The notes beneath the pieces are model-generated. The model did no database searches. It was not told the origin of the DNA and saw nothing but the letters and a program-made list of their open reading frames with translations. Below, in pieces: positions 3,912 to 23,624 of a stretch of DNA of 59,656 bases. The DNA is from Lachnospiraceae bacterium. Its GTDB lineage: Bacteria > Bacillota > Clostridia > Lachnospirales > Lachnospiraceae. The position numbers and the translations under genes are program-made. The stretch lies in the NCBI GenBank assembly GCA_017614155.1, contig JAGACK010000021.1, positions 1 through 59,656 of the forward strand, written 5' to 3'. Within the stretch, counting starts at the first letter, position 1, and each line of letters starts with the position of its first letter.

Positions 3912-4835
3912 TTAAAGAGCGTCCCAATAGCGTTTTTTGTCGTCCTCGTTGTACTGCATCCCGTCCGGCTGTACCTTTGTACAGGATACTGCAAGCGATC
4001 CGGGACCGATATGACAGGCTACACTGAGTGAAAGAGGGTCTAAAAACACTCTGTAGCCCGGAAATTCCTTTTTTACTTCATCCATGAATTCCTCGGCGAT
4101 ATCCCTGTTATATGTATAGGCCATTCCGATCCAGGCGTTGGGGTGCTCGCTGTCCTCGCCTCCGTATCCTTTTTCAAGCTCGTCTCTGATGGCTTTTATC
4201 ATGACCTGCTTTGCGTTTTTCATCCCGCGGGATTTTGCAAAGGCGTCAAGCTTTTCGCCGAATATCTTTAAAACAGGCTTAATATTCAGGATCCCGGCAA
4301 CGGTTGCCGCAGCAGGCGTGACCCTTCCTCCCTTCTTGAGGTATTTCATTGTATCAACTGTGATAAAGATGGCGGAATCAAACTTTGTTGCTTCAAGCCG
4401 TTCCTTGATCTGAGCCGCTGACATCCCGCTGTCGGCCATCTTTTTTGCTTCAAAGCAGGAGACCTTCTGTGTGACAGAGATGCGCTGATTATTTACGACA
4501 TGAACCTTTCCGTCATAGTTTTCCGCAAAGGTCATTGCGCTTTCGCATGAGCCGGACAATCCGCTTGACATGGGTATATGTACTATTTCGTCATATTCCC
4601 CGAGAAGACTGTCCCAAAGATCCATAACCTGTGCCGGAAGAGGCTGGGATGTATGGATCTCGGCATTTTCATCGGAAAGCAGTTCATAATACTGTTCCTG
4701 AGTAAGGTCGATGTCTTCAAAATAGTTCTTTTCATTTATGACAAAAGGCATGGGCAGCACGAAGAAACCGAGCTCTTTTGCGCGGCCCTGTGTGATGCCG
4801 CTGTTGCTGTCCGTTACGATCGCTATCTTTGACAT
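3912..4835 (-). CDS. DegV family fatty-acid-binding protein
   Basis: A 307-residue cytosolic DegV protein. The family binds fatty acids; the FakB members present them to the kinase FakA. The N-terminus KIAIVTDSNSGI matches the DegV opening strand, HTSQP is the conserved Ser-Gln-Pro, and IPMSSGLSGS is the lipid-head-group loop. Near the C-terminus, CHIGPGSLAVS corresponds to the conserved GPG turn. Length is typical. It is transcribed alone, away from the lipoprotein gene at 5038, with its own promoter (4871-4900) and terminator. No FakA (DAK-domain kinase) is in the window, so whether it is a true FakB is open. A second DegV domain is embedded in the hybrid kinase at 16627-20061. Confidence 0.93.
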   Translation of the reverse strand: MSKIAIVTDSNSGITQGRAKELGFFVLPMPFVINEKNYFEDIDLTQEQYYELLSDENAEIHTSQPLPAQVMDLWDSLLGEYDEIVHIPMSSGLSGSCESAMTFAENYDGKVHVVNNQRISVTQKVSCFEAKKMADSGMSAAQIKERLEATKFDSAIFITVDTMKYLKKGGRVTPAAATVAGILNIKPVLKIFGEKLDAFAKSRGMKNAKQVMIKAIRDELEKGYGGEDSEHPNAWIGMAYTYNRDIAEEFMDEVKKEFPGYRVFLDPLSLSVACHIGPGSLAVSCTKVQPDGMQYNEDDKKRYWDAL

Positions 4836-10894: not shown

Positions 10895-13201
10895 ATGAGC
10901 GCATCAGACAGAACCGCGTATGAAAAAAAACTCATAATGAGAAATACCGTGATGACGATAGTGGTCATCGCATTCTTCACAGGCATTATCCTGCTCTACT
11001 ACAGCATGCTCATAAATGAGAAGAGGAGCAATATCATAAAGAGCGGGGAGATGACAGCCAAGGAGTCAGCTGAAAAGATAGATCAGTATCTTTCCACCAA
11101 TATAGATTCGGTGGATCTGGCAGCATATACGCTTGATGAGATGATCACGGATCACTGCTCGGACGATGAGATGAGGGATTATATAGTGGAGCTTTCCACG
11201 GCCGTCAGGAGCGCCGTATGGGAAAATTCCACAGGACTGTACGGCTATATCAACGGAAAGTTCATCAGCGGCACAAACTGGGAGCCACCGGAGGGATATG
11301 ATGCCACCGTACGGCCCTGGTATATAAAGCCGATGGAACATCCGGGTGAAATGACGGTACTTGACCCCTATCATGATATTCAGTCGGGACATACCATGCT
11401 TGCGCTCGGGAAAACCCTGTGTGACGGTGTAAGTGTCATCTCGGTCGATGTATCGCTTGACAGGATACAGGAGCTTGCCGAAGATGCCGTGAAAAACGGC
11501 GACTCGGATATTGAGATGGTGCTCAACGACAAGGGGGTCGTGATCGCGCATTCCGACAAAAGTGAGATCGGCAAGGACTATAAAGAAGAAAAAAAGACCC
11601 TGGGAGCCGAGGTGATAAAGAGGCTTGATAAGACAGAGGAGCATTCGTTTGAGTTTTCCTTCAAAGGCGCGCGGTACATAGTTTATGAAGCGTTCCTGCA
11701 GAACGGATGGTCGTGCATATCGGTAAAGGATGCCACAACCATATTCGGATCCATCAACTGGATCTTCCTGATAACCATTGCGGCTGTCACGGCGATCGTC
11801 CTTATTATAAGCATCATCATGACGCGGTCGAACAGTTACCTGCAGATGTCGGCAAAGGCAAGGGCGTCCAGCGATGCCAAATCGGCGTTTCTGTCGCAGA
11901 TGTCGCATGAGATCAGGACTCCGATCAATGCGATGCTCGGGATGAACGAGATGATCCTGCGCGAAAGCGATGACCCGGCGATACGTTCCTATTCGGAAAA
12001 AGCAAGGACTGCCGGCAGGCATCTGCTGGACATGGTAAATGACATTCTCGATTTCTCAACGAGTGAGGACGGGGGGATCGATACCGGCGAGACGGATTTT
12101 GAGACCTTCTTCAATGAGGAGGTCGTGGTGCCTGAAGAATACAGGGGAAAGTTCACGGCGGAGGATGCCCGTATCCTTGTGGTCGATGATAATGCCATGA
12201 ACATTGTGGTCTTTAAAAGCCTTGTCGGACCGACCCGGGTAAATATCGATACGGCGGAGAGCGGAAAAGAAGCGATAGCGCTCACTCTGGATAATAAATA
12301 CGACATGATATTTCTCGATCACATGATGCCGGAAAAAGACGGGATCGAGACTCTGCATGAGATCAGGGGTGATTTGGGCAATCCCAATCAAGGCACTCCT
12401 GCGATCTGCCTGACGGCAAATGCCATATCAGGCGCCAGGGAACAGTACCTGTCAGCCGGCTTTGATGATTATCTGACAAAGCCCGTCGATCCCGGCAGGC
12501 TGGAGGATCTGATGCTGAAATATCTGGCAGATGAAAAGATCAGGGCAGGACAGGAAAGCGGAGAGGAAGGCAGGAAAGAAGAGGACGAAAATGCCCCTGA
12601 TGACATGCCGGAACTTGAGTCCCTGGTAAATGCAGGCGTCGACACAAAAAAAGGGCTGAAGAACAGCGGCTCAAAAGAGGCGTACCTGCTGCTTCTGAAG
12701 ATGTTTTACGAGACAATTGACGAAAGGACAGATGAACTGAACGGCTTCTGTTCCGAAGATGATGTCAAAAATTATACGATAAAGATACATGCCCTGAAAA
12801 GCTCTGCAAGGATCATCGGGGCAGCGGGTCTTGGAGAAAGGGCACAGAAGCTTGAAAACGCCGGGAAAGCCGGAGATATGGACTATATCAGAAGGGAAAA
12901 CGATGGCTTCATAGAGGAGTTTCAGGCCTTAAGGGAACCCCTTTCCGTCCTGTTTGCGTCTTCTTATAATAAAGACGACAGGCCTGAAGCGGATGAGACG
13001 GTTGTAAAGGATATGCTTGGCAGGCTTCTCCAGGCAGCGCATGACATGGACTGTGACCGGCTTGACGACATCATCCTTGTGCTCGAGGATTACCGCATGC
13101 CGGAAAGCTATGCCGGTCTGTACGCAAAGGTAAAGGAATCCGTGGGAAGATATGATTATAAAACACTGGTCGCTCTGCTGTCACATGAAGCGGAAGGATA
13201 A
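10895..13201 (+). CDS. Hybrid sensor histidine kinase lacking the ATPase domain: dCache, HisKA, REC, HPt
   Basis: A 768-residue membrane sensor. Helices at about 17-39 and 284-308 bracket an extracellular dCache domain. The dCache domain has Y135-x4-R140-P-W142-Y143, D157 and D185, the pattern of amino-acid-binding dCache_1 domains known from chemoreceptors such as PctA. A HisKA helix with SHEIRTP (His338) follows. About 40 residues after that helix the protein passes straight into a receiver (D431, D432, D475, K529); the N, G1 and G2 boxes of an ATP-binding domain are absent. An HPt with HALKSSAR (His632) and an extra helical tail end it. It cannot autophosphorylate alone and probably takes phosphate from the kinases at 14579 and 16627. 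No strong ribosome site is seen at 10895. Confidence 0.9.
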   Translation: MSASDRTAYEKKLIMRNTVMTIVVIAFFTGIILLYYSMLINEKRSNIIKSGEMTAKESAEKIDQYLSTNIDSVDLAAYTLDEMITDHCSDDEMRDYIVELSTAVRSAVWENSTGLYGYINGKFISGTNWEPPEGYDATVRPWYIKPMEHPGEMTVLDPYHDIQSGHTMLALGKTLCDGVSVISVDVSLDRIQELAEDAVKNGDSDIEMVLNDKGVVIAHSDKSEIGKDYKEEKKTLGAEVIKRLDKTEEHSFEFSFKGARYIVYEAFLQNGWSCISVKDATTIFGSINWIFLITIAAVTAIVLIISIIMTRSNSYLQMSAKARASSDAKSAFLSQMSHEIRTPINAMLGMNEMILRESDDPAIRSYSEKARTAGRHLLDMVNDILDFSTSEDGGIDTGETDFETFFNEEVVVPEEYRGKFTAEDARILVVDDNAMNIVVFKSLVGPTRVNIDTAESGKEAIALTLDNKYDMIFLDHMMPEKDGIETLHEIRGDLGNPNQGTPAICLTANAISGAREQYLSAGFDDYLTKPVDPGRLEDLMLKYLADEKIRAGQESGEEGRKEEDENAPDDMPELESLVNAGVDTKKGLKNSGSKEAYLLLLKMFYETIDERTDELNGFCSEDDVKNYTIKIHALKSSARIIGAAGLGERAQKLENAGKAGDMDYIRRENDGFIEEFQALREPLSVLFASSYNKDDRPEADETVVKDMLGRLLQAAHDMDCDRLDDIILVLEDYRMPESYAGLYAKVKESVGRYDYKTLVALLSHEAEG

Positions 13202-13212
13202 GGAAGAAAGAT

Positions 13213-14598
13213 ATGAGTTACTGGATAGCTGTGGTTGATGATGAACCGTTGAGCCTCACGAATGCAAGGGTGCTGCTGCGTTCGAGAAACATGCGCGTCA
13301 GCTGCCTTAGTTCCGGAAAAGACCTGCTTGAATTCATGGAAAAGAATTCGCCGGATCTGATCCTGCTTGACATACTCATGCCTGAAATGGACGGGTTTGA
13401 GACATACCGCGCACTCAGGCAGTATGAAGAAAGCAGCGGCAGGACGCCGATACCCGTGATATTCCTGACAGGTGAGGATAATAAGGAAACGGAGCGCAGG
13501 GGCCTGAAGGCCGGAGCTTCTGATTTCATCCACAAGCCCTTTGACGAAGATATACTGATCAAAAGGATCTACAATACCATCACGAACAGCAAAACAATAG
13601 AAACGCTCACCGAAGAAGCGACCATTGACCGGCTGACGGGATTTTTGAACAAGGCAAGCGGCACTGAAAAGATATCGGCAATGTGCAAGACTCAGACCGG
13701 TTCGCTCATGATCATCGACATGGATAATTTCAAGCTTGTCAACGATCTTTTCGGGCATGATATGGGAGACAGGATACTGGTCGCGTTTGCCGGCGTCGTA
13801 AGACACAACATCAGGAACGAGGATGTCATAAGCCGCATCGGCGGCGATGAGTTCATGGGCTTTTTTTCAGGCATGACAAAGGAAGAGGAAGTATCCTCGC
13901 TTGTGTCAAGGCTTAATGATCAGTTTGATGTCCAGGCTGAGAAGCTGATGGGAAAGGATCACGGGATACCGCTGGGGATATCGGCCGGCTGCGTGTTTGT
14001 TCCAAACAGGTATGATGATTACCAGATCCTTTTTCAGTACGCTGACAGCGCGCTCTACAAGGTAAAGCAGAGCGGCCGTCAGGGTTATGAGATCTATTCG
14101 GAGGATTCTTTTGAGGGTGAAGAAACCGAAGACATGAGCAGGGAACTGTCACGCGTCCTCAAGATAGTCTCGGAGAGGACCGAAGGAAAGGGAGCGCTTC
14201 TTTTGGGACAGGAAGCCTTTTCCTGGAACTACCGGTTTATCGTCAGGTTCCTGAAAAGGTACAGCGGTCAGGCAAACAGGATACTTTTCAGGGTGACCGC
14301 AAAGGAGTCGGGGGTCATTTATTCGGAGATAGTTGCTTCTTTTGGGAATACGCTCAAGGGAGCGCTCAGAAAAAGCGATATCATCTTCCAGTGCAGGCCG
14401 AACCAGTTTTTTGTCGTGCTGCCGCTGCTTACGGAGAGGGATACGCCGGCTGTTATAGAACGTATCATAAAGTCATGGAAATCTACGGGCTACATGGACC
14501 GGGCAAAGATAGAATATGAAGCATCTCCGATGAAATTTGAGAATGCTGACAGTTCGGTCAGAAAAAAAGAGGGTTCGGATGAATCAGAAAAAAAATGA
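13213..14598 (+). CDS. Response regulator diguanylate cyclase (REC-GGDEF-degenerate GGDEF)
   Basis: A 461-residue cytosolic protein that should make c-di-GMP when phosphorylated. The receiver has the D9/D10 pair, phospho-acceptor Asp53 and Lys108. The cyclase domain has an intact GGDEF at 210-214 and the allosteric I-site RxxD (RNED, 201-204) five residues before it, so product inhibition is likely. A third segment (about 315-440) has GGDEF-fold spacing (LRKSDIIFQCRPNQFFVVLP) with RPNQF in place of the catalytic motif, i.e. a second, dead GGDEF-like domain. AGGAAG precedes the ATG at 13213, 11 bp after the previous stop. The end overlaps the next gene by 20 bp. Confidence 0.92.
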   Translation: MSYWIAVVDDEPLSLTNARVLLRSRNMRVSCLSSGKDLLEFMEKNSPDLILLDILMPEMDGFETYRALRQYEESSGRTPIPVIFLTGEDNKETERRGLKAGASDFIHKPFDEDILIKRIYNTITNSKTIETLTEEATIDRLTGFLNKASGTEKISAMCKTQTGSLMIIDMDNFKLVNDLFGHDMGDRILVAFAGVVRHNIRNEDVISRIGGDEFMGFFSGMTKEEEVSSLVSRLNDQFDVQAEKLMGKDHGIPLGISAGCVFVPNRYDDYQILFQYADSALYKVKQSGRQGYEIYSEDSFEGEETEDMSRELSRVLKIVSERTEGKGALLLGQEAFSWNYRFIVRFLKRYSGQANRILFRVTAKESGVIYSEIVASFGNTLKGALRKSDIIFQCRPNQFFVVLPLLTERDTPAVIERIIKSWKSTGYMDRAKIEYEASPMKFENADSSVRKKEGSDESEKK

Positions 14599-16630
14599 AA
14601 AATTCATAGTTGCTTTAGCGACAATAGCTTCCGTGGGTCTTGTCGTAGAGAACTACCTTATGGGATGGGAGTTCTGGGTGCCTGTCGTTGTCCTTGCGGG
14701 TATGATCCTGATCTGGATGATAAGCCTGACGGACAGGATCGATCAGGATCTGAGGATATTATTCCATTTCGGCTTTGCTGCCCTGCTGGTTTTTTATCAC
14801 GGGATACACAGGACAAGCCTGTTTGACTCTGCCCTGATAGTCGTGCTGGTGATGGCGACATATTCGGTTCTCAGAAAAGTGTACATGATGCACTTCATGC
14901 TGGCAGAGTTTTTTGCTATTCTTTTTATCCAGCTCATCAATCTCCCGGAAGGCGAGCCGGTGGTATATGACAGACTGACTGTGTCGAGGCTCCTCCTTCA
15001 GATAGTCGTGGTGCTGTTTGTCTACAATGTGAGCGTGAGGTCGATCAATGACCGGATCGATGACGATGAAGAAAAGAAGGTAATGGATCGGCTCATAGCT
15101 TCAAATAATGAGAGCATGGAGGATTTTCTGTCAAATATCTCCCATGAACTCCGCACACCGGTAAATGTAGTAAACGGCATGTCGGACCTTCTGATAAAGA
15201 AGGGAGCTGGATCTGAAGCCATGTCCATCAAAGGTGCGGGAGTGAGGCTTGCCTGTCAGATAGAGGATATCCAGGATTACACGGAATGCAAGAAAGAAGA
15301 TGTGTATCTGGACGAGGAAAACTACATGAGCACATCGCTGATAAACGATGTGGTCACAAGCTTTCGCATGAATGACAATGCAAAGGATCTGGAGCTTGTG
15401 GTTGACCTCGATCCGCTTGTTCCCACTATGATGTATGGTGATATCAAAAAACTGCACAAGATATACAGACATCTGCTCGAAAATGCCGTAAAGTTCACGA
15501 GGCGCGGCGGAATACTGGTAAGAATGTACAGCGAGAACACGGATTACGGCGTGAACCTGACAATAGAGATGACTGATACCGGCATAGGGATGAGCAGGAA
15601 TGATCTGCATTCCGTCACCGAGGGGATGTATCAGGCAAACAAAAAAAGAAACCGCAGCTCCGGAGGCATCGGACTGGGCCTTTTCATAGTATACGGTTTT
15701 GCTCACAGCATGGGAGGCTTTGTCAGGATCGAAAGCGAAAAGAGAAACGGTACTACCATCAGGGTTACGGTTCCACAAAAGGTGGTAGATGGAACGCCCT
15801 GCCTGGCGCTTCGTGATTCCTTTGACGGAGCTGTGCTTTTCCATGTCAGGCCGGACAAATACAAGGTTCCCGGACTGCGTGATTTCTACAGGGAGATGGC
15901 TTCAAATCTTGCAAAGGGGATCCGTGTACCGCTTTATGCAGCAGAGACTGTCTATGAGGTTGAGCGTCTGAAGGAAAAGCTCAAAGTGAGCCATGTGTTC
16001 ATGGGACAGGAAGAATATGAGGAAAACAAAGGATATTTCGAGGAACTTGCAAAGGAGGATATAGTTGTTGCGGTATCTGCGGATAAGGACATCCAGATGC
16101 CGGCAGAAAGCCGTATCCTGCTGATGCCAAAGCCTCTGTATGCATACCCTGTCATCAGGATACTAAATGACGGATCGTCCGCGCAGATCGCGGATCTGGA
16201 GGAGAAAGCCGAAAGACCGTCGTTTGAAGGCGTCAGTGCACTGATCGTTGATGATGAGCCCATGAACCTTGTAGTGGCCTCATCCCTGTTCAGGGAATAC
16301 GGGATGAGCATAGATACGGCCGGAAGCGGAAAAGAAGCTATCCGGAAATATCATGATAATGACTATGATGTCATCTTCATGGATCATATGATGCCGGAGA
16401 TGGACGGCGTGGAAACGATGAAACAGATCAGAACTCTGGCGGGAGATCTCGGACGCGAGATTATAATAGTCGCTCTGACCGCAAATGCAGTATCGGGCGC
16501 CAGAGAAATGTTCATAAGGGAAGGCTTTGACGGATTTATAGCAAAACCCATCGATACGAAGGATTATGAAAGAGTTATGCTCCGGGTGTTGTCGGGCTCT
16601 CAGACAGCAAAGGGAGGTGAAAAGAAATGA
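14579..16630 (+). CDS. Hybrid sensor histidine kinase (6TM, HisKA, HATPase, pseudo-REC, REC)
   Basis: A 683-residue membrane kinase. Six hydrophobic helices occupy about 9-152, with no large extracellular domain, so it likely senses within the membrane. HisKA has SHELRTP (His189). The ATPase has the N box with Asn302, G1 DTGIGM (Asp333) and G2 SGGIGLGL (361-368). A diverged receiver-like segment (about 410-530) lacks a phospho-Asp, then a full receiver (VDDE at 557-560, Asp602, Lys656) ends the protein. There is no HPt; the neighbouring kinases each have one. Start at the ATG at 14579 inside the previous gene, preceded by AGAGGG. Stop overlaps the next ATG by 4 bp. It is a candidate phosphodonor for the ATPase-less kinase. 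Confidence 0.92.
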   Translation: MNQKKNEKFIVALATIASVGLVVENYLMGWEFWVPVVVLAGMILIWMISLTDRIDQDLRILFHFGFAALLVFYHGIHRTSLFDSALIVVLVMATYSVLRKVYMMHFMLAEFFAILFIQLINLPEGEPVVYDRLTVSRLLLQIVVVLFVYNVSVRSINDRIDDDEEKKVMDRLIASNNESMEDFLSNISHELRTPVNVVNGMSDLLIKKGAGSEAMSIKGAGVRLACQIEDIQDYTECKKEDVYLDEENYMSTSLINDVVTSFRMNDNAKDLELVVDLDPLVPTMMYGDIKKLHKIYRHLLENAVKFTRRGGILVRMYSENTDYGVNLTIEMTDTGIGMSRNDLHSVTEGMYQANKKRNRSSGGIGLGLFIVYGFAHSMGGFVRIESEKRNGTTIRVTVPQKVVDGTPCLALRDSFDGAVLFHVRPDKYKVPGLRDFYREMASNLAKGIRVPLYAAETVYEVERLKEKLKVSHVFMGQEEYEENKGYFEELAKEDIVVAVSADKDIQMPAESRILLMPKPLYAYPVIRILNDGSSAQIADLEEKAERPSFEGVSALIVDDEPMNLVVASSLFREYGMSIDTAGSGKEAIRKYHDNDYDVIFMDHMMPEMDGVETMKQIRTLAGDLGREIIIVALTANAVSGAREMFIREGFDGFIAKPIDTKDYERVMLRVLSGSQTAKGGEKK

Positions 16631-19600
16631 ATCCTGTCAGGCTGATCAAAAAATACATTGATTTCGTAAAGAATCCCCAAAAGGAGTTTGCCGAAAGGAT
16701 CTTTCTGCTCCTTGCCGTCACATCGGAGATAGCAGTAGGCATCGCGCTCATAGGGGACATTGTCACGGGCGATTCATACATGGAATGTATCGTCATAGGG
16801 GCTGAGATCATAGCTGTTGTTGTCCTGACACTGGTCTGTCTTTATTATGACAAGATCAGATTTGCCATAAGGATAACGGTGGTCGCGCTTGTGTTCATCA
16901 TCATCCCGGCGCTGTTCTTCTTCGGAGGAGGACTTTACGGCGGAGGCGTCATATGGATCATCTTTGCATATATGTATGCCGGGCTTGTTCTGAAGGACAG
17001 ATGGAGAACGATGATGTTCATTCTGATAACCATCGTATCTCTTTCATGCTATGTCATCGGTTATTATCATCCTGAGCTGGTCTATCCTCATTCACGAAGC
17101 CTGTTCTTTGTGGATTCCTTTATCTCGGTTGTGCTCGTGGGAATCCTCTGCTATTACATGACGAGGTTCCAGGGACGCCTTTTTGCCGAGGAAAACGAGC
17201 GGGCAAGGAAGGAAGCGGAAAGAGCGGAGGAACTGACGCGTTCCCAGAACCGCTTCTTTTCAAGCATGAGCCATGAGATCCGTACCCCCATAAATTCGAT
17301 ACTGGGCTTAAATGAGCTGATACTGCGTGATCAGGAGGCAACGGATGATATCGTGAAGGATGCTTCCGGCATCCAGGGATCCGGCAAGATGCTCCTGGCG
17401 CTCATCAACGATATACTTGATTTTTCAAAGATTGAAGCAGGAAGCATGGATATAGTTCCCGTGGATTACCATGTCGGGGATATGCTTTCGGAGATCGTCA
17501 ACATGCTGTGGCTTCGCGCGCAGGACAAAGGACTCGGTTTTGAGGTTGAAGTCGATCCCGAGGTCCCGAAGGTGCTTTACGGTGATGAGGTGCGCATAAA
17601 GCAGATCATCATCAACCTCCTGAACAATGCGGTCAAATACACAAAGGAAGGCCATGTGGGACTGCGTGTCGAGAGCAGGGATGAGGATAAAGATGCGGTT
17701 GAGCTTGTGATCTCCATTTCTGATACCGGAATGGGCATCAGAAAAGAGGATATGCCATATCTGTTTGATGCCTTCAAGCGTGTGGATGAAGGAAAGAACA
17801 GGCATATAGAAGGAACAGGACTGGGACTGAGCATAGTCAGACAGCTCGTGGAGCTGATGGACGGAACCATATCCGTGAACAGTATTTACGGAGAAGGCTC
17901 GACCTTTACTGTTACCGTAAAACAGCTCGTAACGGATCATACAAAGATAGGCGAGCTTGACATCCATAACCAGCAGATGGTAAGAAGAAGCGCGTACGAA
18001 AGCAGCTTCTGGGCGCCGGAAGCAAAGATCCTCATAGTTGATGACAACGAGATGAATCTCGAGGTTGAACGAAGACTCCTTGAGGATACGGATATGGGCA
18101 TAGATGTGGCATTGAGCGGAAAAGAGGCCCTGGAGATGTGCCTGACAACGCATTATGATGTCATTTTCATGGATCATCTGATGCCCGGAATGGATGGGAT
18201 AGAGTGCCGTGAGGCGCTTCGCGAACAGTACGGGGGAATGAACAGGAGCACGCCTGTCATAGTACTGACAGCCAACGCCGGAAGCGAGAACAGGGAACTG
18301 TATAATAAAGCCGGTTTTGACGGATATCTGGTAAAGCCCGTTTCTGGGGCAGCCATGGAGGAGGTGCTGATACGCCACATATCCCGGGAAAAAGTCGTGC
18401 TTCGTTCCGTGATGATGGGCGATGATGAGGAGATAAATGTATCGGACAAATATACGGACAAACTGCCTGTTATCGTGACATCTTCAAGCATGTGCGATCT
18501 GCCGAGATCGGTGATAAAAAAGCTTCACATTCCGATCATTCCTTTTGTGGTAAAAACGGACAGGGGTGTCTTCAAAGACGGCGTGCATATGGATGCCAAT
18601 GAGCTCATCAGGCATATCAATGAAGGAAAAGATGCGGTCTCTTCGCCTCCCGACGAGGCGGCCTATACGGAGTTTTTTGCGGAAATGCTCAAAAAAGCGC
18701 ATCATCTCATACATATTTCGATCACCACGAGCATGAGTTCCGAATACAAGACAGCCTGTGAAGCGGCCAGGTCTTTTGACAATGTCTCGATCGTCAATTC
18801 GGAGTGTGTTTCAAGCGCTACGGGTATACTCGTGCTCATAGCGTACAAGCTGGTGCAGCAGGGTCTGGCTCCCGAGGAGATCGTATCAGAGCTGAACAGC
18901 GTAAAGCAGCGTCTCAAATGCAGCTTTGTGATAAATACAACATCGTTTATGGCAAAGAAAGGACTGGTAAGCCAGAGGCTTCACCGGATCGCCGACAGCC
19001 TCAATATACATCCTGCGCTGACGATAAAGAACGACAAAGCAGCTATAGGCGGTCTGTGGACAGGGAGAACAAAGAGTTTTTACAAGAGGTATATAAGCAG
19101 CGCTCTTCCGCCGGATACCATACCGGATTCGGATGTGGTCTTTGTCACCTATGTTGACATTGCCCCGGACATGCTTGAATGGATCGGAGAAGAGATCAAA
19201 AAGGCCGCGTATTTCGAGCATGTGATATTTAAGCAGGCATCTGCTGCGATCTCGTCAAACTGCGGACCGGGAACCTTTGGAATACTGTATTTCCTGAAAT
19301 CAAACAAGTCATACAATATAGCGTCATTTATCCATGATGTTGCCGCGGATGCGGAGTATGATACGGAAGATGAGCAGTCTGACATGCCCGACGGGGATAC
19401 GACCGGGAAAATGCCCGATGATCAGCCGGAAGATAAGACGGCAGAAGAAACGCCTGAAAGCTCACAGCCTGCAGAGAAAAACTGGTATGAGAAGCTTTCG
19501 GGCATAGACGGAGAGACTGCCATAAAGAACAGCGGATCCGAGGAGGCTTTCAGGACGGTATTAAAGATCTTTTTTGAGTCCATCGGAGAAAAGAAAGATG

Positions 19601-20061
19601 TACTCGAACAATGCTTTTCTTCCGAAGACTGGGAAAACTATACGATAAAGATCCACGCTCTGAAAAGCTCAGCCAGACTGGTCGGGGCTTTAGGACTCGG
19701 GGAGAAGGCAGAGCGTCTCGAGATGGCAGGAAAGGAAGGAGACATCGGCTATATCAGGGATAATCACGCATCTGTCATGGAGGAATATCAGGGATACAGA
19801 CAGATATTGGGAGAGATATATGATGAGGCAGACAGCGAAGATGAAGATGCCGGAAAGCCCGTGGCGGACGCTTTTATTATGCAGAGCATCTATGATGAGA
19901 TAAGAAACGCTGCCGAATCATATGACAGCAACATGATAGAGAGCATCATGAAGGAAGCTGCGGAATATGCCATACCGGAAGAGGAAAAAGAAAGATTTAA
20001 GCTTGTTTCCGCGAAGGCAGACATACTGGATTATGATGGTATTTTGGAAGTATTGGGATAA
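16627..20061 (+). CDS. Hybrid histidine kinase with embedded DegV domain (6TM, HisKA, HATPase, REC, DegV, HPt)
   Basis: A 1144-residue membrane kinase. Six hydrophobic helices (about 22-178) lead to HisKA with SHEIRTP (His216), an ATPase (Asn334, DTGMG at 366-370, GTGLG at 396-400) and a receiver (Asp516, Lys570). Residues about 612-895 form a whole DegV-like domain: VIVTSSSMCDLP opening, SSPPDEAAYTEFF in place of the SQPS loop, ISITTSMSSEYKTA as the lipid-head loop, and CGPGTFGILYF at the end. An acidic linker, an HPt (HALKSSAR, His1010) and a helical tail close it. DegV proteins bind fatty acids, so this domain may let lipid ligands modulate receiver-to-HPt transfer. GGAGGTG precedes the start, which overlaps the previous stop. 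Confidence 0.92.
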   Translation: MNPVRLIKKYIDFVKNPQKEFAERIFLLLAVTSEIAVGIALIGDIVTGDSYMECIVIGAEIIAVVVLTLVCLYYDKIRFAIRITVVALVFIIIPALFFFGGGLYGGGVIWIIFAYMYAGLVLKDRWRTMMFILITIVSLSCYVIGYYHPELVYPHSRSLFFVDSFISVVLVGILCYYMTRFQGRLFAEENERARKEAERAEELTRSQNRFFSSMSHEIRTPINSILGLNELILRDQEATDDIVKDASGIQGSGKMLLALINDILDFSKIEAGSMDIVPVDYHVGDMLSEIVNMLWLRAQDKGLGFEVEVDPEVPKVLYGDEVRIKQIIINLLNNAVKYTKEGHVGLRVESRDEDKDAVELVISISDTGMGIRKEDMPYLFDAFKRVDEGKNRHIEGTGLGLSIVRQLVELMDGTISVNSIYGEGSTFTVTVKQLVTDHTKIGELDIHNQQMVRRSAYESSFWAPEAKILIVDDNEMNLEVERRLLEDTDMGIDVALSGKEALEMCLTTHYDVIFMDHLMPGMDGIECREALREQYGGMNRSTPVIVLTANAGSENRELYNKAGFDGYLVKPVSGAAMEEVLIRHISREKVVLRSVMMGDDEEINVSDKYTDKLPVIVTSSSMCDLPRSVIKKLHIPIIPFVVKTDRGVFKDGVHMDANELIRHINEGKDAVSSPPDEAAYTEFFAEMLKKAHHLIHISITTSMSSEYKTACEAARSFDNVSIVNSECVSSATGILVLIAYKLVQQGLAPEEIVSELNSVKQRLKCSFVINTTSFMAKKGLVSQRLHRIADSLNIHPALTIKNDKAAIGGLWTGRTKSFYKRYISSALPPDTIPDSDVVFVTYVDIAPDMLEWIGEEIKKAAYFEHVIFKQASAAISSNCGPGTFGILYFLKSNKSYNIASFIHDVAADAEYDTEDEQSDMPDGDTTGKMPDDQPEDKTAEETPESSQPAEKNWYEKLSGIDGETAIKNSGSEEAFRTVLKIFFESIGEKKDVLEQCFSSEDWENYTIKIHALKSSARLVGALGLGEKAERLEMAGKEGDIGYIRDNHASVMEEYQGYRQILGEIYDEADSEDEDAGKPVADAFIMQSIYDEIRNAAESYDSNMIESIMKEAAEYAIPEEEKERFKLVSAKADILDYDGILEVLG

Positions 20062-20298: not shown

Positions 20299-20333
20299 CT
20301 GATGGCTGAATGATACTTAAGGGAGGTGTAAAA

Positions 20334-21299
20334 ATGTTAAGGACTTTGGAAGAGACGGTTTCGTTGATCGAAGAGGGGAGGATCCTCCATATCGCGGCGG
20401 ATGAATCGCTGCTTTGCAGGCTCCCGAAAGGAAAGTGGATAGGCGGTACCACACCGTATTTTATCAGTGAAGAGGGGGGGATCTTTACCAAAGAAAGACT
20501 ATTTGTAAACGAGATCGATTACGCAGAAGATATAAAGATCTGTTCCTATGGGAAATATAATGTTTTTCAGATAGTTGAGGAATGCTTTGATAACGGCCTG
20601 ACCATGATCATCATGCCGTACGGTTCCGAGGTCGCAGCCAAATATTCCAGGGAGGCGCCGGAGGTTGAGGAACTGCTCATGCATCCGGTCGTAGGCTGGA
20701 TATCAGGTTTCGATCTGTCCGAAGCCGCCGAGGCAAAGGTGTACGACGGATCGACGCTAAAGGCGTATACCGACAGGGCAGTGGCAATGTACATCCGTCT
20801 TTCCGGGGAAAAGAGCGCCATGGTAAATATGATAAACATATTTTCAGATGACAAAACAGATCCTGTCATCCGTTTTCCGGAAAATGATCTGAAGGCAAAA
20901 AAATGCAGCGTGAACGGGCAGGAGGTAGATTTTGCCGAACATATCAAAAAGAAAGGCATTGACCCAGGGATGCCGCTGGTAGCCGATCACAACGGATCCT
21001 ATATCAACACATCCATCAAGGGCATGGAAGACGGGGAGGTCAGTTTTTTTGCACCGGTATTCAGAAACATAGAATACCGTTTTGCAACACCCGTTTCGGA
21101 CTATGCCGCTGAATTTGAAAAAAGGATAACCGAGAAAAAGAACTGTGAACCGGTATTTGCTTGCAACTGTATACTGAATTATCAGAAGGGAAATCTTGAG
21201 GGAAAAAAGATAGCGCCTTTTGAGGGACCGGTCACCTTTGGTGAAGTCGCATACCAGCTCTTAAACCAGACGCTGGTCTATTGTGAGATTTTGGGATGA
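20334..21299 (+). CDS. Conserved hypothetical protein of the signalling operon (DUF6976-like?)
   Basis: A 321-residue soluble protein starting at 20334 with a strong GGGAGGT. It opens with an Ile/Leu-rich helix-strand unit (SLIEEGRILHIAADESLLCRLPKGKWIGG divided over two elements), has a Gly-Trp turn (VVGWISGFDL) near residue 120, and ends with a Cys pair in FACNCILNYQKG followed by EGPVTFGEVAYQLLNQT. The C-terminal order resembles FIST-like sensory proteins and, from memory, DUF6976; neither is certain. It lies 4 bp before the symporter gene. FIST domains bind small ligands and occur in signalling proteins, which would suit this operon. Confidence 0.7.
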   Translation: MLRTLEETVSLIEEGRILHIAADESLLCRLPKGKWIGGTTPYFISEEGGIFTKERLFVNEIDYAEDIKICSYGKYNVFQIVEECFDNGLTMIIMPYGSEVAAKYSREAPEVEELLMHPVVGWISGFDLSEAAEAKVYDGSTLKAYTDRAVAMYIRLSGEKSAMVNMINIFSDDKTDPVIRFPENDLKAKKCSVNGQEVDFAEHIKKKGIDPGMPLVADHNGSYINTSIKGMEDGEVSFFAPVFRNIEYRFATPVSDYAAEFEKRITEKKNCEPVFACNCILNYQKGNLEGKKIAPFEGPVTFGEVAYQLLNQTLVYCEILG

Positions 21300-21303
21300 T
21301 AAG

Positions 21304-22827
21304 ATGGAAACTGTCATAAGGGTTAATGATGCGATAAACGGATTTGCCTGGGGAACCTTCGGACTGGTCCTCCTGCTTGGGACGGGGCTCATATGCTCGG
21401 TGATCACCGGTTTTTTCCAGGTATCCCACATAAGGCACTGGTTTCGGGGAACCTTCGGGATCATAAACAAAGAGGGCCGTATAATAAATGATGCCGGCGC
21501 TCTGTCGCAGTACCGCGCCTTCTGTACGGCGCTCTGCGCTACGATAGGTACGGGAAACATTGCCGGCGTATCCACCGCCATATGCATGGGCGGACCCGGA
21601 GCGGTATTCTGGATGTGGGTCGCCGCGTTCTTTGGAATGATGGTCAAGTATTCCGAAAATGTCCTCGGCCTGTATTACAGGAGACGCAATTCCGAGGGGG
21701 CATGGTCGGGAGGTCCCATGTATTACCTCCAGGACGGACTTGGCTCGATAAAGCACTGCAGATGGCTGGGGAGAGGGCTGGGAATACTGTTCTGTATCTT
21801 TACGGTACTGGCATCCTTCGGTATCGGGAACATGGGGCAGATCAACAAGATAACCATTAATTTTGAATCGACCTTTCTGACCGGTATAGATCTGGGTCTT
21901 TTCATGGGCGCGCCAAAGGTCAACTGGCTCATAGGAGTGACACTGATGGTCACGGCTGCAGCCATCATCCTTGGCGGCTTCAGGCGCCTTGCGGCAGTTT
22001 CCGAAAAACTCATACCCTTCATGTCGGTAGCATATATAACAGGGTGTGTTATCATGATACTGATAAATATATCCAGGTTTCCGGATGTGTTCTCGTCGAT
22101 ATTCAGGTTTGCCATGGGGCCTGCAGCCATAAAGGGCGGAGCTGCGGGAACGGCTGTTCAGATTGCATTCAATACCATAAAGAACGGATGCAAGAGAGGA
22201 GTTTTTTCCAATGAAGCAGGGCTTGGCTCGTCTGTCATGGTCCACAGCAACAGCTGTGCCAGGGAACCGGTCAGACAGGGAATGTGGGGCATAGCGGAGG
22301 TTTTCCTCGATACCTTGATAATCTGTACGCTGACGGCCCTGGTGGTCCTGGGGTCGGGCGCCATAGATCTTTCCACAGGCCTGGTAAATGAGGGCGTCAA
22401 TGATGCGACTCTTGTAGCGAGCGCCTTCGGCGCCGTCATGGGAAAGCCGGGAGAGTGGTTTGTGGTCCTTGCGATCACGCTGTTTGCCTTTACGACAGTC
22501 CTTGGATGGTCTTATTATGGGGCAAAGGTTACGGAATATCTGCTCGGTGTTACCTGGGCCAGGATATACAGGATCTTCTTTATCTTCCTGATAGTGCTGG
22601 GCGCGGTTATGGAATCAAATCTGGCATGGGATATCTCGGATACCTTCAATGGCCTGATGATGATACCAAACCTGATCGGCATTATAGTACATGTACCGCT
22701 GCTTATCAGGCTGACCCGCAATTATGCGGACCGCAGGATCAGGGGAAAGGACATAAAGCCGCTGCTTTCCTATGACCCGGACATAGCAAAAGACGCCGAA
22801 GAGGCGGTGGCAAAGGGAATGGATTGA
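21304..22827 (+). CDS. Sodium:alanine/glycine symporter, AGCS family
   Basis: A 507-residue inner-membrane symporter that imports alanine or glycine with Na+. It has about ten hydrophobic helices and the AGCS signatures: TALCATIGTGNIAGVSTAI near residue 75, GGPGAVFWMWVAAFFGM, EGAWSGGPMYYLQDGL and GVFSNEAGLGSS near residue 300. Length is normal. The ATG at 21304 is five bases after the previous stop; a GTG at 21283 overlapping that gene is possible. Its place within a phosphorelay operon whose first sensor has an amino-acid-binding motif suggests the transport substrate and the sensed ligand may be related. Confidence 0.93.
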   Translation: METVIRVNDAINGFAWGTFGLVLLLGTGLICSVITGFFQVSHIRHWFRGTFGIINKEGRIINDAGALSQYRAFCTALCATIGTGNIAGVSTAICMGGPGAVFWMWVAAFFGMMVKYSENVLGLYYRRRNSEGAWSGGPMYYLQDGLGSIKHCRWLGRGLGILFCIFTVLASFGIGNMGQINKITINFESTFLTGIDLGLFMGAPKVNWLIGVTLMVTAAAIILGGFRRLAAVSEKLIPFMSVAYITGCVIMILINISRFPDVFSSIFRFAMGPAAIKGGAAGTAVQIAFNTIKNGCKRGVFSNEAGLGSSVMVHSNSCAREPVRQGMWGIAEVFLDTLIICTLTALVVLGSGAIDLSTGLVNEGVNDATLVASAFGAVMGKPGEWFVVLAITLFAFTTVLGWSYYGAKVTEYLLGVTWARIYRIFFIFLIVLGAVMESNLAWDISDTFNGLMMIPNLIGIIVHVPLLIRLTRNYADRRIRGKDIKPLLSYDPDIAKDAEEAVAKGMD

Positions 22828-22847: not shown

Positions 22848-23624
22848 ATGGGAGTCGTTGTCAGAAAACTGGTCATAGCTGTTATGCAGTACAGCGTTGT
22901 GGTAAAAGGCGTTGAGAGAAAACTGACCGAAGCCGGATATGATGTCATGATGCTTACGGAGGATTTTGGCAGGATAGGGGATCTTTCGGGAACTACCGAT
23001 CTGTTCATTCTCTATCTTCCAAACGAGGCTGCCGACAAGAGTGACACGGAAAAGGTCCTGAAAATGATCTGTGAAGAGATCGGACAGAACAGAGACAGGG
23101 TCCTTGCCATCGGCGAGGAAAAGGACCGTGCGCGTCTGTATGACAGGATCCCATCCATGAGTGAGTATGGGTGGATCAGCAGGCCGTTTGAAATGGATGC
23201 GCTGAGTTCTGCGATAGAAGGCATCATTTCCGGAGAGAAAAAGGCAGGCGCAAAGAAAAGGATACTGATAGTTGATGATGATCCCACCTATGCAAAGATG
23301 GTAAAGGAATGGATCAAGGACAGCTACAGGGTTGATATCGTGACAGCCGGTATGCAGGCGATCACCTTTCTGCTGAAGGCGCAGAAGGAAGAACAGGTCG
23401 ATATGATCCTCCTTGATTATGAGATGCCGGTGGTGGACGGGCCGCAGGTTCTGCAGATGCTGCGGCAGGAAACGGAAACGGCGCATATTCCGGTTATCTT
23501 TCTGACAGGCATCGGGACAAAGGAGGCGGTAGCGCGCGTCATGAGCCTGAAGCCGGACGGATATCTGCTGAAATCCACATCAAGAGATAATCTGCTGAAA
23601 TTCCTGAAGGATAAGCTTCACTAA
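22848..23624 (+). CDS. Response regulator with pseudo-receiver and receiver
   Basis: A 258-residue cytosolic protein. The first half (1-125) has a receiver-like pattern without acidic pocket or phospho-Asp (FILYLPN at the usual site). The second half is a full receiver: DDD at 143-145, phospho-acceptor Asp190 in LLDYEMP, Thr in LTG, Lys in YLLKST. There is no output domain, so it may be a phosphate sink, a shuttle to an HPt or a protein-interaction switch. GGAGGA precedes the start, 20 bp after the symporter stop. It is most simply the terminal acceptor of the kinases upstream. Confidence 0.88.
   Translation: MGVVVRKLVIAVMQYSVVVKGVERKLTEAGYDVMMLTEDFGRIGDLSGTTDLFILYLPNEAADKSDTEKVLKMICEEIGQNRDRVLAIGEEKDRARLYDRIPSMSEYGWISRPFEMDALSSAIEGIISGEKKAGAKKRILIVDDDPTYAKMVKEWIKDSYRVDIVTAGMQAITFLLKAQKEEQVDMILLDYEMPVVDGPQVLQMLRQETETAHIPVIFLTGIGTKEAVARVMSLKPDGYLLKSTSRDNLLKFLKDKLH

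Follow-up and report, generated by a model that had tools for sequence, protein, structure and literature searches.

Does a domain of a fatty-acid-binding type, built into a membrane histidine kinase, give that kinase a lipid input? The question arises from one gene in the window, by which we mean the whole stretch of 59,656 nucleotides analysed here (contig JAGACK010000021.1 of the Lachnospiraceae bacterium assembly GCA_017614155.1). A first-pass annotation had described a hybrid kinase with a complete DegV domain between its receiver and HPt domains and had suggested that lipid binding gates the phosphorelay. With such a built-in domain in a membrane sensor, the cell may be able to monitor its own lipids, provided that the domain binds them, as we infer.

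A Hybrid Histidine Kinase with an Internal DegV Domain

The gene, referred to here as the DegV kinase, is an uninterrupted forward-strand ORF with an ATG start and AGGGAGGTG upstream of the ATG. A minus-strand frame read across 16627–20061 contains stops, and the shorter minus-strand ORFs overlapping the gene (up to 317 aa) are taken as shadows of the coding strand. The following features were assigned:

16627–20061, forward strand: DegV kinase, a hybrid histidine kinase of 1144 aa (membrane region-HisKA-HATPase-REC-DegV-HPt)
16684–17181, forward strand: N-terminal hydrophobic region, modelled as six long helices whose starts fall within aa 20–185
17245–17442, forward strand: HisKA, phospho-acceptor His216 at 17272–17274 (Pfam, alignment)
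17581–17922, forward strand: HATPase_c, aa 319–432 (Pfam, 1.2e-28)
18028–18363, forward strand: receiver, Asp516 at 18172–18174 (Pfam, alignment)
18460–19302, forward strand: DegV/FakB-type domain, aa 612–892 (Pfam, fold model, FakB1 residue mapping)
19339–19476, forward strand: acidic linker from DegV to HPt, aa 905–950 (pLDDT below 50, length variable among relatives)
19510–19821, forward strand: HPt helical domain, His1010 at 19654–19656 (Pfam, alignment, model)
19858–20055, forward strand: small conserved helical tail after HPt, aa 1078–1143 (alignment, model)

All five Pfam parts scored above their cut-offs within this single 1144-aa ORF, which bears out the first-pass description of a hybrid kinase and a DegV domain in one protein. 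HisKA was matched over aa 207–272 (2.7e-17), Response_reg over aa 468–579 (2.2e-23), and Hpt over aa 978–1037 (5.1e-6; 27.1 bits against a cut-off of 24.6). The DegV match (PF02645) spans aa 616–889 and profile positions 4–278 of 280 (4.2e-37; 128.4 bits against a cut-off of 27), and the NCBIfam DegV model TIGR00762 reached 144.1 bits against a cut-off of 99.7. The residues expected of a hybrid kinase with HPt are all in place alongside the HATPase: H216, D516, and H1010, the last two already named as phosphotransfer residues by the first-pass annotation, are invariant in 65 aligned full-length sequences. The membrane assignment for aa 20–185 was made by eye, and no Pfam family scored above cut-off in this N-terminal region.

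Tripartite kinases of the ArcB, BarA, and TorS kind follow the order HisKA, HATPase, REC, HPt. The DegV kinase has this order in common with them but differs in the DegV domain inserted after REC and in an HPt that alternates with an upstream partner (see below); it did not reach the NCBIfam equivalog cut-offs for ArcB, BarA, or TorS.

The full-length model has a pLDDT of 80.2 and a pTM of 0.43, and because this pTM is low, domain orientation is unreadable from it. Residues 595–609, at the joint between REC and DegV, and residues 905–950, in the linker between DegV and HPt, fall below pLDDT 50. Measured between HMM edges in loci from the best 80 of at least 568 relatives, the REC-DegV spacing is 24–28 (78 loci), and the DegV-HPt spacing is 60–115, with 35% Asp+Glu (77 loci). 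A linker that is variable, acidic, and predicted with low confidence suggests that the HPt is mobile, and it probably sits on a flexible tether. Docking of a basic lid on the acidic linker was considered and set aside, because lid charge gave no clear contrast (+3.35 in HPt-type and +2.49 in HPt-less relatives, +3 in FakB1, and +5 in FakB2).

The DegV Pocket Compared with FakB

Unlike FakB/DegV proteins (PF02645, TIGR00762; Staphylococcus aureus FakB1, 5uto, and FakB2, 4x9x), the window DegV domain is fused to a hybrid kinase. The model of the domain is full and confident, and comparison with FakB, a check that the first-pass annotation had proposed, confirmed a true FakB/DegV-type fold in the predicted structure. 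The DegV motifs quoted in that annotation (TSSSMCDLP, SSPP, ISITTSMSS, and CGPGTFGI) are all present in the sequence.

According to passages of PMC8892158, the carboxylate in FakB1 is held by a Ser171-His270-Thr62-carboxylate-Ser95 network with Arg173 as the latch, mutations in this network destabilize FakB, and a bulkier side chain at position 121 disturbs fatty-acid packing. Passages of PMC9136124 describe Arg173 as conserved across FakBs and report that the R173A variant remains able to exchange fatty acid but shows no activity with FakA. Mapped onto FakB1, S672 of the window domain occupies the position of Thr62, S704 that of Ser95, K778 that of Ser171, L780 that of Arg173, and N878 that of His270. 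The domain called complete by the first-pass annotation is thus complete in fold and keeps both carboxylate-contact hydroxyls (S672 and S704), but it has Lys, Leu, and Asn in place of Ser171, Arg173, and His270.

The same comparison was made for 136 distinct fused rows, 85 with a C-terminal HPt (HPt type) and 51 without one (HPt-less). The position of Thr62 is Ser or Thr in 84/85 HPt-type and 40/51 HPt-less rows, Ser95 is retained in 83/85 and 25/51, and Arg173 in 5/85 and 23/51. Asn stands at the His270 position in 84/85 and 46/51 rows, respectively, and His in 1/136; because the named rows were drawn by a pair of patterns that includes NCGPG[TS]FG, Asn is found there partly by selection, and among 34 rows gathered without Asn-favouring patterns it was present in 30, with His in 2. 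Of the named rows from the best 80 of at least 568 relatives, 71/80 carry Lys or Arg at the position of Ser171, and 79/80 have an aliphatic residue at position 121. The two stand-alone DegV proteins of the same genome carry Thr, Ser, Arg, and His at positions 62, 95, 173, and 270. The conservation of S672 is modest evidence, since ~30% of DegV columns are equally conserved among HPt-type relatives (65 sequences).

The residue pattern suggests that the window DegV domain is a binder or sensor rather than a carrier serving FakA. A FakA-type match, a 617-aa ORF, does occur in the genome, so one could imagine that the domain still acts as a FakB, offers fatty acid to FakA, and ties acyl-phosphate supply to signalling. 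We find that idea scarcely credible: the arginine needed for the FakA reaction is L780 here and is retained in so few HPt-type rows that we reject the role, and the change of His270 to N878 adds to the case against it.

Distribution and Ancestry of the Fused Domain

A scan of named genomes returned at least 568 confirmed relatives, and matches running into DegV occurred in no fewer than 45 of the 299 Lachnospiraceae genomes sampled (two candidates were scored per genome, and many of the listed matches cover the kinase-receiver part only). These numbers rule out a unique oddity. The search of other genomes for the same architecture, also suggested in the first-pass annotation, found the five parts in the same order in 69 of the 80 best named loci (of at least 568), including L063, which is cut within its membrane part; such recurrence argues that the combination is not due to chance. 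Another eight of these 80 loci are truncated on the 5′ side, with DegV-HPt retained. No HPt is seen in the remaining three: the C-terminal ends of L066 and L125 look altered, and L117 is cut at its 3′ end. The titles of the 80 name Lachnospiraceae or Butyrivibrio, save two Eubacterium, one uncultured bacterium, and one uncultured Clostridia.

The genome of the window itself holds six DegV domains, two stand-alone and four in large ORFs, which gives it four DegV-carrying hybrid kinases. One stand-alone DegV gene lies in the window at 3981–4829 on the minus strand. In a tree of 109 DegV domains, built by a quick method without bootstrap, the fused domains formed one group (SH-aLRT 100), apart from the stand-alone DegV proteins sampled. 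In a class sample (291 genomes, E 1e-45), the fusion was found beyond Lachnospiraceae only in two genomes of one other family (G430 and G355), and a phylum sample (299 genomes, E 1e-60) gave no fused DegV outside Lachnospiraceae; both samples are thin, with at most 8 candidates scored per genome. From these sequences, DegV-carrying hybrid kinases are one clade, almost confined to Lachnospiraceae.

Two members loosen the link between DegV and its position in the chain. In L212, DegV lies at the N-terminus, before the membrane region of a TM-HK-REC protein with a separate HPt gene nearby; in L213, DegV is a separate overlapping ORF that nonetheless falls inside the fused group of the tree. Among the matches listed in a search for further DegV-first kinases (299 genomes, E 1e-110, two candidates per genome), only L212 spanned the query end to end, and five regions around similar kinases contained no DegV gene.

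A Partner Kinase and the Placement of HPt

Two further sensor genes bear on the phosphorelay:

14537–16630, forward strand: partner hybrid kinase, HisKA-HATPase-REC, without an HPt match (Pfam)
10895–13201, forward strand: membrane sensor, HisKA-REC-HPt, without a HATPase match (Pfam)

The stop codon of the partner gene and the ATG of the DegV kinase overlap by 4 bases (ATGA). A partner homologue lies upstream in 69 of the 70 named loci with enough flank (from the best 80 of at least 568), and in 52 of them the overlap is exactly 4 bases.

HPt-less members end at or shortly after DegV; a few of the 51 rows are cut or altered, e.g., L117, L212, L066, and L125. Upstream DNA was fetched for many HPt-less relatives in order to locate the HPt, and in 44 of the 48 with a visible upstream partner it was found on that partner (37 fit a HALKS-like pattern and 7 have other HxxK[SG] motifs). 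Of the 136 DegV kinases, 124 had a visible partner. The HPt belonged to the DegV kinase alone in 76 of these pairs and to the partner alone in 44; no pair carried it in both kinases, and 4 carried it in neither. Two of the last four look broken (L066 and L125), L212 is permuted and cut, and L187 is a plain exception with its HPt in the next ORF downstream. The first-pass view of DegV as seated between two phosphotransfer modules therefore fails as a general design, and because the HPt of 44/48 HPt-less kinases is on the partner, DegV cannot in general act as an in-line gate inside one chain; the chain positions in L212 and L213 also count against such a gate.

A Fisher test on HPt placement gave 2e-29, uncorrected and on rows related by descent. 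The HPt label needs 4 changes on the DegV tree, two of which are L117 (cut) and L125 (altered), leaving the main clade and L049. With two HPt switches on the tree rather than dozens, the 76 pairs and the 44 pairs do not count as independent observations. HPt is absent in the partner of L049 and in the visible partners of other HPt-type members. Among other sensors, the best match to the window HPt is the HPt of gene 10895–13201 (102 bits, 55%), and the best partner HPt reaches 77.8 bits and 45%. A direct move of the HPt from partner to DegV kinase is not supported by this comparison and a weak HPt tree (only 90 columns, support of 93 for the group, and a ‘D’ label that also takes in several other sensor kinases). 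The pattern looks like replacement, not simple transfer: the DegV kinase would have gained a different HPt, and the partner would have lost its own. The near-exclusive placement turns into a testable question whether neighbouring hybrid kinases work as one relay unit in trans.

Neighbouring Genes and Candidate Outputs

The surrounding genes include candidate outputs of the relay:

13213–14598, forward strand: REC-GGDEF protein, candidate c-di-GMP output (Pfam)
20310–21299, forward strand: DUF6976 protein, downstream of the DegV kinase (profile match)
21283–22827, forward strand: sodium:alanine symporter family protein (PF01235), downstream (profile match)
22848–23624, forward strand: receiver protein, downstream, candidate phospho-acceptor (Pfam)

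Counted in named loci with enough flank (from the best 80 of at least 568), homologues were found of REC-GGDEF in 26/58, the 10895–13201 sensor in 22/53, DUF6976 in 33/76, the symporter in 50/68, and the 22848–23624 receiver protein in 45/59. Of 45 HPt-less loci, 8 had a REC-GGDEF type nearby, 11 a REC protein with an HD domain, and 8 a CheA-like kinase; these are counts of protein clusters with one representative of each scanned, and the downstream counts are not comparable with those above, most regions holding ~1 kb downstream. By gene association only, these neighbours point to outputs of the c-di-GMP and motility type. A scan for promoters and terminators found 34 promoter-like sites (17.7 in shuffled sequence) and 18 terminator-like sites (11.9 in shuffled sequence), and none of our readings draws on it.

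Discussion

The best reading of the locus, which we judge about evenly poised between right and wrong, is that a lipid receptor derived from FakB modulates a relay in which two kinases share one HPt and which probably feeds receiver and c-di-GMP proteins. The partner and DegV kinases, encoded by overlapping genes, would be two halves of one phosphorelay with a single HPt in common, which in this lineage is carried by the DegV kinase, close to its C-terminus, on a flexible acidic tether. The FakB-derived pocket would most likely hold a fatty acid or similar acyl lipid from the membrane in which the kinase is anchored. A filled or empty pocket would bias the kinase/receiver core and, through it, the phosphate reaching the shared HPt; from there, phosphate would pass to receiver proteins, among them REC-GGDEF (c-di-GMP) and the REC protein. 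The lipid would not be handed to FakA, because the Arg required by FakB for that step is replaced. Control of phosphate flow by lipid occupancy, the core of the first-pass proposal, is plausible. Several observations sit uneasily with the lipid-receptor relay: nearly all fused domains have Asn in place of His270, a member of the carboxylate network of FakB1, the retention of Ser95 in only 25/51 HPt-less relatives means that binding may not be general, DegV is placed after the receiver, the usual seat of output domains, and in four pairs neither kinase has an HPt, although two look broken, one is cut, and only L187 is a plain exception. A more specific version, in which two co-made hybrid kinases own one HPt and the acyl lipid bound by DegV determines whose phosphate arrives, thereby steering c-di-GMP, is rather doubtful.

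The position after the receiver also suits a different idea, that DegV is an output module whose lipid pocket opens or closes upon phosphorylation of Asp516, so that fatty acids are captured or released at the membrane on command. Response regulators usually have the order REC then effector, the REC-DegV spacing is almost constant beside the variable DegV-HPt spacing, and HPt-less members end with or shortly after DegV. Against this, the low pLDDT of the REC-DegV joint gives no sign of tight coupling, L212 and L213 place DegV elsewhere, and the loss of the FakA-step Arg in 80/85 HPt-type rows means that the lipid would not reach FakA; we regard an output role as unlikely. The same substitutions would suit a scaffold or docking domain that binds no lipid, e.g., for the partner kinase: His270 is Asn in most rows of both types (most HPt-type ones from the Asn-favouring search), Arg173 is lost in 80/85 HPt-type rows, Ser95 is lost in 26/51 HPt-less rows, and mutation of the carboxylate network makes FakB unstable in the passages of PMC8892158. 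The full and confident fold, the near-invariant hydroxyls at both carboxylate-contact positions in the HPt type, and the aliphatic position 121 in nearly all named rows of the best 80 argue against such a domain, and a pure scaffold seems to us improbable. A strict in-line gate, with lipid in DegV controlling Asp516-to-His1010 transfer within one chain, has in its favour the domain order of the DegV kinase and of the 69 named loci that share it; the 44 pairs of the same family with HPt on another polypeptide, together with the long low-confidence linker before HPt, make it very hard to maintain.

Fatty acids are known to reach two-component systems by other routes. The histidine kinase RpfC detects the fatty acid DSF via a 22-residue N-terminal region, as reported in PMC5391125. 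It resembles the DegV kinase in being a membrane kinase with a fatty acid ligand, shown for RpfC and proposed here, and differs in sensing that ligand through its N-terminal region rather than a DegV domain. RpfC also contains REC and HPt. The SaeRS two-component system is likewise a case, from a Gram-positive bacterium, of lipid state feeding such a system: as PMC5539427 describes, it is repressed by cellular fatty acids, and fatty acid kinase acts on it indirectly, lowering the fatty-acid pool. To our knowledge, the SaeRS kinase has no DegV domain. If the lipid-receptor relay is correct, a FakB fatty-acid carrier fold has been turned into a signalling receptor and provides direct lipid input to a Gram-positive phosphorelay. 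No DegV-histidine kinase fusion was found among the titles and abstracts listed for open-licence PMC papers, some of which contain both terms, in line with the first-pass remark of knowing no characterised example, and the DegV passages of PMC3146951 mention no kinase; domain-architecture databases and subscription papers may list the fusion without having studied it. A family of shared-HPt two-kinase relays with a captured FakB domain would be, within the open-licence literature searched, undescribed.

Ruminant-gut bacteria such as Butyrivibrio are known to be stressed by unsaturated fatty acids from the diet. Among the best 80 loci (of at least 568), 18 titles name an animal site, all 18 of them the ruminant gut, and some of the records are Butyrivibrio.

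Conserved Cysteines of the Fused DegV Domain

Two cysteines in the DegV domain of the DegV kinase were nearly invariant across the 65 aligned full-length sequences:

18919-18921, + strand, Cys765 codon
19261-19263, + strand, Cys879 codon

Cys765 occupies position 158 of FakB1, a fatty-acid-binding DegV protein of Staphylococcus aureus; this is one of the two positions at which substitutions were introduced to perturb the packing of the fatty acid (PMC8892158). Cys879 adjoins Asn878, the counterpart of FakB1 His270. The window also contains a separate DegV gene, located ~12 kb from the kinase:

3981-4829, - strand, gene for a stand-alone DegV/FakB-type protein whose pocket residues are canonical

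A Neighboring Sensor without a Detectable ATPase Domain

A further phosphorelay gene was identified by Pfam matches:

10895-13201, + strand, membrane sensor carrying HisKA, REC, and HPt domains

The Pfam profile search returned no HATPase_c match in this sensor at E 0.001, and a kinase lacking its own ATPase domain would need to be phosphorylated by another kinase. Nine of its 17 homologues from the named loci (the 80 best-scoring relatives of the DegV kinase) are comparably short (<810 aa); the accompanying ATPase motif test was unreliable. Judged by eye, the C-terminal stretch following its HPt resembles the small, conserved helical tail after the HPt of the DegV kinase (19858-20055, + strand). 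Downstream of the latter, DUF6976 and a sodium:alanine symporter (20310-22827, + strand) are both recurrent 3′ of HPt-type DegV kinases.

Permuted and Split Relatives

In one relative (L212:5431-8304; G240:C24), cut at its 3′ end by the contig, an N-terminal DegV domain precedes TM-HK-REC and the cluster encodes HPt as a separate gene (123 aa). In another (L213:6684-9363; G274:C14), HK-REC is followed by DegV as a separate ORF of 285 aa, which overlaps the HK-REC ORF by 74 bases and represents either a true split or a frameshift.
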